Under the pieces are notes generated by a model, which made no database searches, was not told where the DNA came from, and was given only the letters and a program-made list of their open reading frames with translations. A stretch of DNA of 7,631 nt from NCBI GenBank assembly GCA_017880825.1, contig JADGRN010000064.1:1-7631 (forward strand), given 5' to 3'. This document shows positions 121-2,982 of the stretch, in pieces. This DNA is from Methylophilaceae bacterium (lineage in GTDB: Bacteria; Pseudomonadota; Gammaproteobacteria; Burkholderiales; Methylophilaceae). Numbering within the stretch: the stretch's first letter is position 1; every line of letters begins with the position of its first letter. The position numbers and the translations under genes are program-made.

Positions 121-804
121 TTAGCTGGCTTTCCGAAACGTGAGATTGATACGACGGCTACCCAACAAGGAATGATGTGCTTGCTTAACCGGCAACACGC
201 CGTGATAGCGCATTCTGTCCGAGCCGCCCCAGACCACCACATCGCCATGGTTGAGCGGGACATGGGCAGGTTTATCCGCGCGCTTGAAGCCGCCGAATAA
301 AAACATGGCGGAAACGCCCAGCGAGACCGAGACAATGGGCTGGCTGAAATCTTTTTCGTTTTTATCCTGATGCAAGCTCATCCTAGCGCCTGATTCATAC
401 CTATTAAGCAGGCAGGCGTCCGGGCTGAAGTCGTTATAGCCAGCTTGCGCTGCGGCGTTTGCGGCAAGCACTCTGAAAACATCCGGCATGCCTGGCCAAG
501 GCTGACCTGACAGCGGGTCTAAAGCATCGTAGCGATAGCCGGTGCGGTCTGTGACCCAGCCATACGAGCCGCAGTTGCTCATTGCCACCGACATCTCGAA
601 ACCACCCGGCGTGACCATATGCCGAAAGGGCGCTTTTGCCAAGATTGATTCCACCGCTGCCAGTAGCGCAACCACATCGGCCAGCGCGAAATCGCGCAAT
701 ATGACTGAACCGGGCCCGAGCTTCTCTTGCAACAGCTCAGGGCTGGTGTGGCGGCTGAACAAATCCATCGTCATGGAATGCCATTCGCCAACAAACTCAT
801 GCAT
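121..804 (-). CDS. alkB: Alpha-ketoglutarate-dependent DNA dioxygenase AlkB
   Basis: AlkB oxidatively demethylates 1-methyladenine and 3-methylcytosine in DNA or RNA, using Fe(II), 2-oxoglutarate and O2. The protein lines up with E. coli AlkB over nearly its whole length. Visible landmarks are MVTPGG (63-68), substrate-pocket NCGSYGW (77-83), iron ligands HQD (H145, D147) and H201 in RYHG, and the 2-oxoglutarate-binding arginines R218 and R224 in RRINLTFR. All catalytic residues are present. The start is uncertain. ATG 804 has GGAGG only 3 bases upstream and gives 227 residues. ATG 774 overlaps the ada stop as ATGA and gives 217. ATG 768 gives MDLFS, which matches the E. coli start (MLDLF) best, and 215 residues. 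It follows ada directly and is presumably co-transcribed and Ada-induced. A partial IS30-type element begins 21 bp after its stop. Confidence 0.96.
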   Translation of the reverse strand: MHEFVGEWHSMTMDLFSRHTSPELLQEKLGPGSVILRDFALADVVALLAAVESILAKAPFRHMVTPGGFEMSVAMSNCGSYGWVTDRTGYRYDALDPLSGQPWPGMPDVFRVLAANAAAQAGYNDFSPDACLLNRYESGARMSLHQDKNEKDFSQPIVSVSLGVSAMFLFGGFKRADKPAHVPLNHGDVVVWGGSDRMRYHGVLPVKQAHHSLLGSRRINLTFRKAS

Positions 805-1886
805 TGGCCTCCATTGGCCTCTCGCTCAAGCAATGCATGCTTACGCTCTACGCCCCAACGGTAGCCGGATAACTCGCCGTCGTTACGCACCACGCGATGG
901 CAGGGGATAGCCACAGCCAGCACATTGGCGGCACAGGCACCCGCCACTGCACGCACCGCCTTCGGTACGCCGATACGATTGGCAATCTCGGTGTAGCTTG
1001 CGGTTGAACCCGCGGGGATTTCGCGTAACGCCTGCCAGACGCGTTGCTGGAAAGCGGTGCCGCGCACATCCAGCGGTAAATCCAGACCGATGGCCGGCGC
1101 TTCAACAAAACCGACTACCTTGGCGACTAGCTGCTCAAATTCCGCATCGCCGCCGATCAGGTTGGACTTGGGGAACCTGTCTTGCAAGTCACGCGCCAAA
1201 GCATCGGGGTCATCACCCATCAGGATGGCGCACACGCCTTTTTCGCTCGCGGCTACCAGAATTGAACCCAGCGAGCATTCACCGATGGCAAAACGTATCT
1301 CGGTGTTGGCGCCACCAGCACGGTAGCTGGATGGCGTCATGCCCAATAGCTGATTGGATTTTTCATAGAAGCGGCTGTTGGAGTTGTAGCCGGCATCGAA
1401 AATCGCCTCGGTCACCGTGCCGCAGCGATCAAGCTGATCGCGCACGCGCTTGGCGCGGTGCGCTGCGGCATAGGCTTTGGGTGTCAGCCCCGTCACACTC
1501 TTGAACACGCGATGAAAATGGTAAGTACTCAAGCCAGCATGTGCGGCCAGTTGCTCAAGGTTGGGCACTTCTTCCGCGCTCTCAATCAGGCGGCAGACTT
1601 CGGCGACCTTGGCCGTATGTAGCTCGGCCAGTGGCGCCTGGTCAGGCTTGCAGCGCTTGCAGGGGCGAAACCCTGCCTGTTCAGCCTCTTCACGCGTAGT
1701 GTGGAACTGCACATTCTCTGGCCGCGCAGGGCGCGCCGCGCACGAGGGCTTGCAATACACCCCCGTGGTTCTGACTGCATAGTAAAACTTGCCGTCCGCA
1801 GATGCGTCACGCGCTACTACTGCCGCCCAGCGTGGGTCTTGCTCGGTGGCGCTGGCCAGCGCTAAATTTTTAACTGATGCTTTCAT
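771..1886 (-). CDS. ada: Bifunctional Ada: methylphosphotriester/O6-methylguanine methyltransferase and transcriptional activator
   Basis: Ada transfers methyl groups irreversibly from DNA to its own cysteines. Methylation of the N-terminal cysteine turns it into an activator of the adaptive response. The 371 residues show three parts in order. The N-terminal zinc domain has C45, C49, C76 and C79 (VYCKPSC and RPCKRC); C45 is the phosphotriester acceptor equivalent to E. coli C38. An AraC-type double helix-turn-helix spans about 92-190. The O6-alkylguanine transferase domain spans about 196-357, with the IPCHRVV active site and acceptor C329. The start ATG 1886 has AAGGA at 1897-1893. The C-terminus (after about residue 357) runs past where E. 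coli Ada would end and is encoded across a 10-bp tandem duplication, so it is probably a frame-shifted tail. The gene overlaps alkB and has a perfect Ada box 67 bp upstream, suggesting autoregulation. Confidence 0.97.
   Translation of the reverse strand: MKASVKNLALASATEQDPRWAAVVARDASADGKFYYAVRTTGVYCKPSCAARPARPENVQFHTTREEAEQAGFRPCKRCKPDQAPLAELHTAKVAEVCRLIESAEEVPNLEQLAAHAGLSTYHFHRVFKSVTGLTPKAYAAAHRAKRVRDQLDRCGTVTEAIFDAGYNSNSRFYEKSNQLLGMTPSSYRAGGANTEIRFAIGECSLGSILVAASEKGVCAILMGDDPDALARDLQDRFPKSNLIGGDAEFEQLVAKVVGFVEAPAIGLDLPLDVRGTAFQQRVWQALREIPAGSTASYTEIANRIGVPKAVRAVAGACAANVLAVAIPCHRVVRNDGELSGYRWGVERKHALLEREANGGQCMSLLANGIP
802..821 (-). repeat. Perfect 10-bp tandem duplication at the ada/alkB junction
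   Basis: On the plus strand CATTGGCCTC occurs twice in tandem (802-811 and 812-821). It lies inside the end of ada and just before the upstream alkB ATG. Because 10 is not a multiple of three, removing one copy changes the ada frame: the protein would then end ...LEREANA with a TGA at 799-797. That is about the length of E. coli Ada's C-terminus, instead of continuing to the TGA at 773-771. The duplication also creates the GGAGG (812-808) ahead of alkB ATG 804. The duplication is seen directly; the ancestral state is inferred. Confidence 0.85.
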
Positions 1887-1916: not shown

Positions 1917-1945
1917 AGTTTAAGAATCTGTCTGGAACTCCACAC
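1917..1945 (-). promoter_or_regulatory. Putative Ada-dependent promoter of ada-alkB
   Basis: On the minus strand a -10-like TAAACT (1922-1917, four of six matches to TATAAT) lies 17 bp from GTGTGG (1945-1940), which is a poor -35. A weak -35 fits a promoter that needs an activator. Transcription would start near 1910, placing the Ada box centre at about -50. That is similar to the E. coli ada and aidB promoters, where Ada binds just upstream of the -35 region and contacts RNA polymerase. The leader would be short, about 24 nt. Hexamer positions are a prediction. Confidence 0.5.
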
Positions 1946-1953
1946 TCTGAGTC

Positions 1954-1966
1954 TTGCTTTTGAATT
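1954..1966 (-). promoter_or_regulatory. Ada box facing ada
   Basis: On the minus strand the 13 bases read AATTCAAAAGCAA, a perfect match to the Ada-binding consensus AAT-N6-GCAA known from the E. coli ada and aidB promoters. It lies 31 bp upstream of the predicted -10 of ada and points toward that gene. It differs at only one position from the second box at 1998-2010 on the other strand. Chance expectation for the seven fixed bases in this intergenic region on both strands is about 0.03. Confidence 0.75.
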
Positions 1967-1997
1967 TGATATTATCTGCCATGAAATTGAGACGCCC

Positions 1998-2010
1998 AAT
2001 ACAAAAGCAA
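1998..2010 (+). promoter_or_regulatory. Ada box facing alkA
   Basis: The 13 bases read AATACAAAAGCAA, again matching AAT-N6-GCAA perfectly, and also containing AAAGCAA as in the E. coli alkA operator (AAAGCAAA). It is oriented toward alkA and is the mirror partner of the box facing ada; the two are separated by 31 bp (1967-1997). Shared sequence and downstream spacing suggest that the two operators arose from a common source or are under the same constraint. Confidence 0.75.
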
Positions 2011-2018
2011 TATTTGGG

Positions 2019-2047
2019 GTGTATTTTTGGATATCGGCACATACGCT
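2019..2047 (+). promoter_or_regulatory. Putative Ada-dependent promoter of alkA
   Basis: At exactly the same distances from the Ada box as on the ada side, this strand has GTGTAT (2019-2024, poor -35) and TACGCT (2042-2047, -10-like, three of six matches), with 17 bp between them. On its own this would be a very weak promoter. The identical layout, Ada box - 8 bp - GTGT - 19 bp - TAnnCT, is what makes it credible. The start would fall near 2054, leaving a leader of about 77 nt with no clear Shine-Dalgarno before alkA. Confidence 0.4.
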
Positions 2048-2130: not shown

Positions 2131-2745
2131 ATGCAAATCGATAGCTACCAACAGGCAACGCAATATCTATCCGGGATGGATAAAGACTTGGCAAGCCTGA
2201 TTGCGCTGGTCGGGCCGTGCACGCATGAACCCAAGCCAGAGCGCGAACCGTATGAAGCCCTGCTGCGGGCGGTTGCCTACCAACAACTGCACTCGCGTGC
2301 CGCCGAGGCGATTCTTGGCCGATTATTGAACTTGTATTCCGGCCACATGCCTGCTCCCGCTCAGCTACTGGCTAGCGAGTTTGAGGCACTGAGAGCCTGC
2401 GGGTTTTCTGCACGTAAGATCGAAACGCTCCGGGGTATTGCCGAGGGAGCCTTGAGTGGCGTTGTTCCTGAACGCAGGGTGGCAGACGCCATGTCCAGTG
2501 ATGAGTTGATAGAGTGCTTGGTCAAGCTAAAGGGGATTGGGCGCTGGACGGTGGAAATGTTGCTCATTTTCACGCTTGCCCGGCTTGATGTGCTGCCGGC
2601 GGATGATTTTGGTGTGAGAGAAGGCTATAAAAGGCTAAAAAATCTTGATAAAGCCCCAACGCCAAAAATCATGATGCAACTCGGCCACGCTTGGAGCCCT
2701 TATCGCACCATCGCAGCATGGTATCTGTGGCGGGTTCCCCGATAA
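2131..2745 (+). CDS. alkA: DNA-3-methyladenine glycosylase II, short AlkA-type
   Basis: This enzyme excises alkylated bases such as 3-methyladenine from DNA, starting base excision repair. The 204-residue protein is a helix-hairpin-helix superfamily glycosylase. A conserved helical segment AVAYQQLHSRAA (47-58) is followed by the helix-hairpin-helix LKGIGRWTVEM (133-143) and LPADDFGVREG (155-165). Its Asp pair D158/D159 should include the catalytic aspartate, probably D159 (E. coli D238 equivalent). The end WSPYRTIAAWYLWR (188-201) is also typical. It is shorter than E. coli AlkA (about 282) because the N-terminal domain is missing, as in many bacterial and yeast-like members. The start is uncertain: ATG 2131 directly follows an in-frame TGA, so no longer form exists, but no Shine-Dalgarno is visible; ATG 2176 is an alternative. 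The gene is divergent from ada with its own Ada box. Confidence 0.93.
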   Translation: MQIDSYQQATQYLSGMDKDLASLIALVGPCTHEPKPEREPYEALLRAVAYQQLHSRAAEAILGRLLNLYSGHMPAPAQLLASEFEALRACGFSARKIETLRGIAEGALSGVVPERRVADAMSSDELIECLVKLKGIGRWTVEMLLIFTLARLDVLPADDFGVREGYKRLKNLDKAPTPKIMMQLGHAWSPYRTIAAWYLWRVPR

Positions 2746-2774
2746 GAATTCCTTATATTGCTTTGCTTACTATT

Positions 2775-2982
2775 GCTTTTCAGGCCACGCACGCTCTCCC
2801 GGATAAATTCGACACGGCGGTCGGCTTCGTCCGTCAGCAGGTCGAGAATTTTCGTATCAAAAAATACATAAGGCGCAATAGACTTGATCGGAGGACTTTA
2901 ACGCATGATAAAACGCGGCGTGGTCGTAATCGCGCAGGTCGTGGCGAAACCATACCAGCGCTTTGGCTATGGATTTACTCAC
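2775..2982 (-). pseudogene. phr: Remnant of a deoxyribodipyrimidine photolyase (N-terminus only, frameshifted)
   Basis: From GTG 2982 the minus strand reads SKSIAKALVWFRHDLRDYDH and on to HALKSSDQVYCA, the N-terminus of CPD photolyases (LVWFRHDLR..DH). The frame hits TGA at 2859-2857. The photolyase sequence then resumes in another frame as FDTKILDLLTDEADRRVEF and continues to about VRGLKS near 2775. The break lies beside a six-A run on the plus strand (2859-2864). After about 70 codons the similarity stops and the convergent alkA end begins 29 bp later, so FAD- and DNA-binding domains are absent and the gene is dead. Its start overlaps the rlmH stop by 8 bp (GTGAGTAA), so the intact gene was the next member of the rlmH operon. 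Confidence 0.85.

Follow-up and report, generated by a model that had tools for sequence, protein, structure and literature searches.

The window, that is, the whole stretch of DNA analysed here (7,631 nt, contig JADGRN010000064.1 of the Methylophilaceae assembly GCA_017880825.1), carries ada and alkB on the minus strand and, divergently oriented, a small alkA gene on the plus strand (Table 1). These gene identities had been proposed by a sequence-only reading and were supported by family profile matches. The alkB gene overlaps the 3′ end of ada, and the two are likely part of one operon. The alkA product scored 38.8 bits against family profile NF007641, far under the cut-off of 229. Between alkA and rlmH lies the remnant of a DNA photolyase gene (2746-2982, minus strand), which matches PF00875 over 33 N-terminal positions of the profile (E 4.6e-7) and then runs into stops; it is possible that the repair block took the place of a photolyase gene.

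The window Ada consists of an Ada metal-binding domain, an AraC-type domain with two helix-turn-helix motifs (HTH1 and HTH2) and an O6-methylguanine methyltransferase domain, the latter with C329 within a PCHR motif (PF01035). All four cysteines of the Zn domain (C45, C49, C76 and C79) are present, including the methyl acceptor (C38 in E. coli). Among the residues assigned to A- and B-box recognition, R52, R78, H123 and R126 match E. coli R45, R71, H115 and R118, and E. coli F114 is replaced by Tyr122, such that four of the five are identical. HTH2 carries the sequence RFYE at residues 172-175, with R172 in first place. The protein is not a Cada2, the Caulobacter Ada relative without an A-box domain that uses GCAA and a CGG X-box (PMC10957082), since PF02805 is present with all four cysteines.

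Table 1. Positions of genes and putative regulatory elements in the window
Feature	Position	Strand	Basis or remark
alkB	121..804	−	NF011930, 347.5 bits (cut-off 267)
ada, E. coli type	771..1886	−	PF02805, PF12833, PF01035; NF011964, 476.9 bits (cut-off 345)
ada promoter/operator module	1917..1966	−	sequence match; layout common to relatives
ada-side A box AAT, then spacer TCAAAA	1966-1964	−	
ada-side B box GCAA, then GACT	1957-1954	−	
ada-side X box CAG-AGTG, then 20 nt	1949-1943	−	
ada-side -10-like TAAACT	1922-1917	−	
gap between the two facing A boxes	1967..1997		31 bp
alkA promoter/operator module	1998..2047	+	sequence match; score 20.4 on the ada-promoter matrix
alkA-side A box AAT, then spacer ACAAAA	1998-2000	+	
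alkA-side B box GCAA, then TATT	2007-2010	+	
alkA-side X box TGG-GGTG, then 20 nt	2015-2021	+	
alkA-side -10-like TACGCT	2042-2047	+	
small alkA, short-type 3-methyladenine glycosylase, 204 aa, HhH-GPD	2131..2745	+	PF00730

The ada/alkA intergenic region contains two 13-mers, AATTCAAAAGCAA on the ada side (1966-1954, minus strand) and AATACAAAAGCAA on the alkA side (1998-2010, plus strand), which are identical at 12 of 13 bases and oriented outward, towards the ATG of ada (1886, minus) and that of alkA (2131, plus), respectively. Their positions, agreement and orientation as Ada boxes had been described earlier and were confirmed from the sequence. The two sites read AATTCAAAAGCAA-GACTC-AGAGTG-N20-TAAACT and AATACAAAAGCAA-TATTT-GGGGTG-N20-TACGCT. 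That is, both match the pattern AATN6GCAAN5RGRGTGN20TANNNT, in which three boxes (A, B and a third, X) and TANNNT stand at fixed spacing: RGRGTG follows GCAA after 5 nt and the -10-like TANNNT after 31 nt in both sites. Each X box is one base off CGG (CAG and TGG).

The bare motif AATN6GCAA was dropped as evidence in its own right, with three matches in the window versus 2.01 ± 1.26 in shuffles, and 321 matches in the assembly. The pattern AATWCAAAAGCAA was found exactly twice in the 1,452,689-base assembly, both times at the ada/alkA region, and its reversed-pattern control gave none, a specificity that supports the earlier reading; the assembly is 75.8% complete, so that further copies may be missing. 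Similarly, exactly two copies were found of the longer form, in which RGRGTG is added to the A and B boxes, both in the same region. When one mismatch was permitted, three more places were retrieved, versus one for the control, and a further regulon in the same assembly was dropped on these numbers. The idea that the inverted pair makes up one symmetric operator was also dropped, as relatives retain the ada-side half alone.

Conservation downstream of GCAA in ada promoters

The three-part pattern was drawn up after viewing the window and 20 relatives (21 loci) and then tested elsewhere. For a sample chosen without the pattern, the best 80 of 597 matches to the Ada alignment were taken, all close relatives of the window Ada type; AATN6GCAA was present within 300 bp of ada in 48 of these 80 loci, or 46 once near-duplicates were removed, and no further selection was applied. 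With the G of GCAA numbered 0, the column counts in the 46 promoters included G+4 (43), C+8 (45), G+9 (41), G+10 (44), T+13 (43) and G+14 (44), together with A+36 (45) and T+40 (44), which are the A and final T of the -10-like element. RGRGTG stood at offset 5 in 29 of the 46 promoters and TANNNT at offset 31 in 31 of them, with at most two at any other offset. The spacer between the A and B boxes followed the form AATTYRANM, with T in 44/46, C or T in 42/46, A or G in 44/46, A in 40/46, one free position and A or C in 45/46. The sequence-only reading had proposed an operator longer than the E. coli consensus and conserved locally as a 13-mer. The sequences do point to a longer operator, but not to a local 13-mer: the conservation of the spacer is moderate and wide, and most of the additional conservation, which had been missed, is in the X box and in the -10 at fixed distance, both downstream of the 13-mer.

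A matrix was then built from 45 AATN6GCAA sites, and an operator was called at a score of at least 20. With near-copies left out in scoring, an operator was detected upstream of 101 of the 118 ada genes. The full matrix gave 102/118 ada upstream regions, versus 2/118 on the reverse strand and 0/118 in ada coding sequences, the two reverse-strand matches being the window alkA and a divergent MFS gene. The 13-mer AATTCAAAAGCAA itself was found upstream of 13 of the 118 ada genes. Conservation of the ada-side site in relatives, as had been anticipated, is supported by these layouts of ada upstream regions. Two of the low scorers have their operator further upstream, before an oxygenase-ada operon in Cupriavidus (L108) and before alkA-ada in Pseudomonas putida (L114; score 13.7); others include E. 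coli and Acinetobacter.

A related element was found in loci encoding Cada2-like proteins. The sample consisted of 25 loci (L166-L190) that best matched a 271-aa protein lacking the A domain, and an A domain was encoded in none of the 25 in the stretches around the loci. The motif CGGKTSG occurred after GCAA in the register of the window in 15 of the 25, of which six had TANNNT at offset 31 and none had AAT at the A position; no in-register motif was detected within about 220 bp in the other ten.

One alternative is that the sites are plain bipartite Ada boxes of the E. coli type, the conserved bases downstream of them being core promoter (-35 and -10) only. A -35 TTG spaced 17 bp from the -10 would overlap the TG of the third box, the GTG end of which coincides with that TTG, and the -10 is at fixed spacing. 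E. coli aidB is similar without an X box, having the -10-like CATACT 31 nt after GCAA, so that a -10 at this distance does not by itself mark operators with an X box. The conservation of C+8, G+9 and G+10, which is about as high as that of the -10, is not accounted for in this manner, as these columns lie upstream of the -35 hexamer and the third box is unlike TTGACA. Moreover, the CGGKTSG of the Cada2-like loci stands at the equivalent place, and in Caulobacter the MEME motif has been reported to include CGG and a scrambled B+X sequence not to be induced (PMC10957082). We consider it unlikely that the third box is core promoter only.

The alkA-facing site deserves separate consideration. Its score is below that of most ada operators (median 35.1). 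A divergent ada/alkA arrangement occurs at 11 of the 118 loci, and the window alone among these shows a complete operator facing alkA. Four others, L008 (12.9), L016 (8.0), L014 (-2.2) and L072 (-11.4), have GCAA, followed at the X place by CAG or CGG, and no A box, and the matrix search showed nothing clear for the remaining six divergent alkA genes. It is quite improbable that only the ada-side site works and that the alkA-side one is a chance or decaying copy. The frequency of AATN6GCAA in the assembly and the lack of a full operator in 10 of the 11 divergent alkA genes would favour such a reading, but the 12/13 match to the ada-side 13-mer, the RGRGTG and TANNNT at equal offsets, and the fact that neither the 13-mer nor A+B+RGRGTG is found anywhere else in the assembly, argue against it. 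As a separate observation, at L005, from a member of the family whose Ada is 79% identical to that of the window, the divergent alkA has decayed to fragments (2788-2924) and the ada operator is intact (score 40.0).

The X box and the second helix-turn-helix motif

In Caulobacter Cada2, the R114A substitution in the RLHD motif of the second HTH was reported to impair promoter binding and to abolish reporter induction (PMC10957082). The residue at the position of R172 was compared with the X box. CGG was present at the X place in 99 of the 118 ada promoters compared, including 98 of the 110 whose Ada has Arg-172 (12/110 Arg-172 rows are without CGG). Where Arg-172 is replaced (by A, C, Q, N, G, H, S and Q), CGG was present in only one of eight (Fisher p 6.9e-6), the exception being the Gln-172 Ada of L137. 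The A box, the B box, G+4 and the -10 letters showed no such link to R172: they are kept in 7/7 of the rows without R172 that score at least 10. In a tree from which the HTH2 columns had been excluded, five changes of R172 were counted, with four independent pairs, of which on average 3.2 went in the expected direction and 0.2 in the other (sign test p 0.125-1). The covariation of R172 with the X box is thus suggestive but falls short of proof after correction for the tree.

Structural data bear on the other contacts. The Ada-DNA structures 1u8b and 1zgw comprise the Zn domain and HTH1 only; a contact between HTH2 and the X box could not appear in these complexes, because their chains end before the second HTH. 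In the AlphaFold model of the window Ada, residues 168-177 of HTH2 have a pLDDT below 50, and the model was not used as evidence. Taken together, the comparisons support the view that the second HTH of Ada probably reads the X box. That a different protein, or a second molecule of Ada, binds the third box instead appears very improbable: the poor prediction of HTH2 and the weak tree-corrected covariation would leave room for such a binder, but GCAA and the third box are separated by about one helical turn, the distance at which the two HTHs of a single AraC-type domain should bind, and the two HTH motifs of Cada2 reportedly serve B and X (PMC10957082).

The alignment also revealed variation in the Zn domain. 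In 18 of 102 aligned Ada proteins the methyl-acceptor Cys is kept and the three other Zn-ligand cysteines are replaced, often by Ser, Ser and Ala (L011, L069, L071, L073-L075, L081, L083, L088, L094, L096, L100, L108, L112, L118, L130, L136 and L142). These proteins are possibly metal-free sensors, judging from the substitutions; a search of open-licence papers on Ada proteins with replaced Zn-ligand cysteines returned nothing.

Occurrence of the three-part pattern in other genomes

The complete pattern was found at 36 sites in 31 of 399 genomes of the order, with one site for the reversed control. Of these, 35 are located at alkylation-repair genes, PF09859 genes or an ada relic. Of the full set of 36, 29 sites lie directly before ada, and one each before an oxygenase-ada operon, a PF09859 oxygenase, a lone MGMT gene, an MGMT-oxygenase-alkB-alkA operon, an EamA-family transporter gene, the window alkA and a 5′ stub of ada; the oxygenase of L039 shares 70-74% identity with those at the other loci. 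The ada loci of twelve of the genomes had been inspected beforehand, five with matches (G000, G066, G080, G084 and G085) and seven without (G010, G017, G029, G064, G069, G082 and G097). With those 12 removed, 26 of 387 genomes had sites, 27 in total, and each of these lies at ada, at a PF09859-type oxygenase or at the stub. Among 369 genomes of the class, nine sites were found outside the window: four before ada, one before a transposase gene, one unclear and three that look like chance.

Several individual sites are worth recording. In G066 a full three-part operator (L157:1132-1181) stands 45 bp before the gene of the EamA-family transporter (PF00892), which on this basis is a candidate new member of the Ada regulon. 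The ada 5′ stub of G259 (L160:1740) consists of about 150 bp, with the ada promoter and first codons, duplicated elsewhere in the genome. In G536 a complete operator (L145:1501-1550) directly precedes a transposase gene with a PF05598 domain, and a mobile element may have landed there behind an alkylation-induced promoter. Separate operators before PF09859-type oxygenase genes were seen in the ada flanks of two Pseudomonas genomes and one Lysobacter (L142:1447, L096:1457 and L083:1225), and from these positions the oxygenase looks like a common member of the Ada regulon. Operator-like sites near ada were also found before genes for a TMEM175-like channel in two genomes (L109:2121 and L091:2041), for a SnoaL-like protein at three loci (L052:1832, L053:1832 and L109:1432) and for short-chain dehydrogenases in two cases (L086:615 and L140:4272). 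These neighbours were identified in L109, L053 and L086 by Pfam, in L091, L109 and L140 by similarity to the former, and in L052 by eye.

A proposed tripartite operator and its relation to known systems

Since the window Ada is of E. coli type, its B and X boxes stand in the Cada2 register and its R172 has the corresponding spacing, we infer that the operator under this E. coli-type Ada is, as far as sequence can tell, a tripartite variant (A+B+X), with a third box close to CGGAGTG alongside AAT and GCAA. Our preferred reading, to which we assign a probability of roughly 0.7, is that two promoter modules lie back to back between ada and alkA, each combining a three-part operator with a -10-like hexamer at fixed distance, that methylated Ada activates both, and that HTH2 likely reads the X box. 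Methylated Ada would bind both operators and switch on ada-alkB and alkA, each from its own promoter. As in the solved E. coli complex, the Zn domain (R52 and R78) would contact the A box and HTH1 (Y122, H123 and R126) the B box, with HTH2 (R172) predicted to contact the X box; the three boxes would lie on one face of the DNA, about a turn apart. The sequence-only reading had predicted one Ada-controlled switch for all these genes: Ada control of both sites is indeed very likely, but the region contains a pair of predicted promoters, both of them complete with a separate operator and -10, rather than a single switch.

If the T of TANNNT is taken as -12, the operator would span -56 to -33. The X box would then end inside the -35 region and place Ada beside sigma, in the manner of class II AraC-family activators. 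The latter (SoxS, Rob and MarA) are sequence relatives whose two HTHs occupy adjacent grooves, with a site that overlaps the -35 region. They are not known to have a Zn methyl-acceptor domain or an A box, whereas the window Ada has the former and its operator the latter.

The E. coli system shares with the window the protein type, A and B boxes with an equal 6-nt gap, and the ada-alkB operon and alkA as targets, an Ada box being present at aidB as well. It differs in that GATTGTTGGTT follows GCAA at E. coli ada, so that there is no X box, and in that TAAAGG, which we take to be the -10 of E. coli ada, begins at offset 36 from GCAA, compared with 31 in the window. The aidB and alkA promoters of E. 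coli are also without an X box. In addition, E. coli Ada has SSSYYRKA at the corresponding place in HTH2, with Ser where the window Ada has R172.

The P. putida alkA-ada promoter resembles the window in that GCAA is followed by an X box (ATT-N6-GCAA-GAAC-CGG in L114, with CGG in the X position) and in that alkA and ada are under one control; it is a single operon with a single operator, versus two divergent promoters in the window. This ATTN6GCAA promoter was reported to be strongly induced by MMS and still slightly induced when the A box was removed, and swaps of the ada motif between P. putida and E. coli failed (PMC3788762). In our interpretation of the promoter sequences, the X box would account for both the residual induction and the failed swap.

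The Cada2 system has in common with the window operator the B box, and CGG stands in the register at which the window reads CAG and TGG; the 46 residues from R68 to R114 equal those from R126 to R172 in the window Ada. The differences are that Cada2 has neither an A-box domain nor an A box, both of which the window Ada system has, and that the X box is CGGKTSG for Cada2-like proteins and CGGAGTG for E. coli-type Ada, a comparison that rests on the Cada2-like loci rather than on Caulobacter promoter sequences themselves. The Cada2 report contrasts Cada2 with the A+B type of E. coli and states that all organisms checked with an E. coli-like Ada carry E. coli-like features (PMC10957082). In the titles and opening lines of abstracts of open-licence literature, we found no description of an X box in the promoters that drive ada genes of the E. 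coli type.

We give somewhat better than even odds to the broader proposal that A+B in E. coli and B+X in Cada2 are two reductions of one older A+B+X operator, which most proteobacterial Ada proteins of the E. coli type, in a sample made up mostly of close relatives of one Ada type with few E. coli-like ones, would still use and read with the Zn domain, HTH1 and HTH2. If this is true, the operator of a textbook DNA-damage switch would be revised, the failed motif swaps between E. coli and P. putida would have a testable reason, and a 50-bp pattern specific enough for mapping Ada regulons in genomes would be at hand. Furthermore, two Ada paradigms described as distinct would be joined: the bipartite operator of E. 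coli would be a reduced form, in which the X box and the HTH2 arginine, and with them the third contact, were lost, and Cada2 would represent the opposite reduction, with B+X and without the A box or the A domain.
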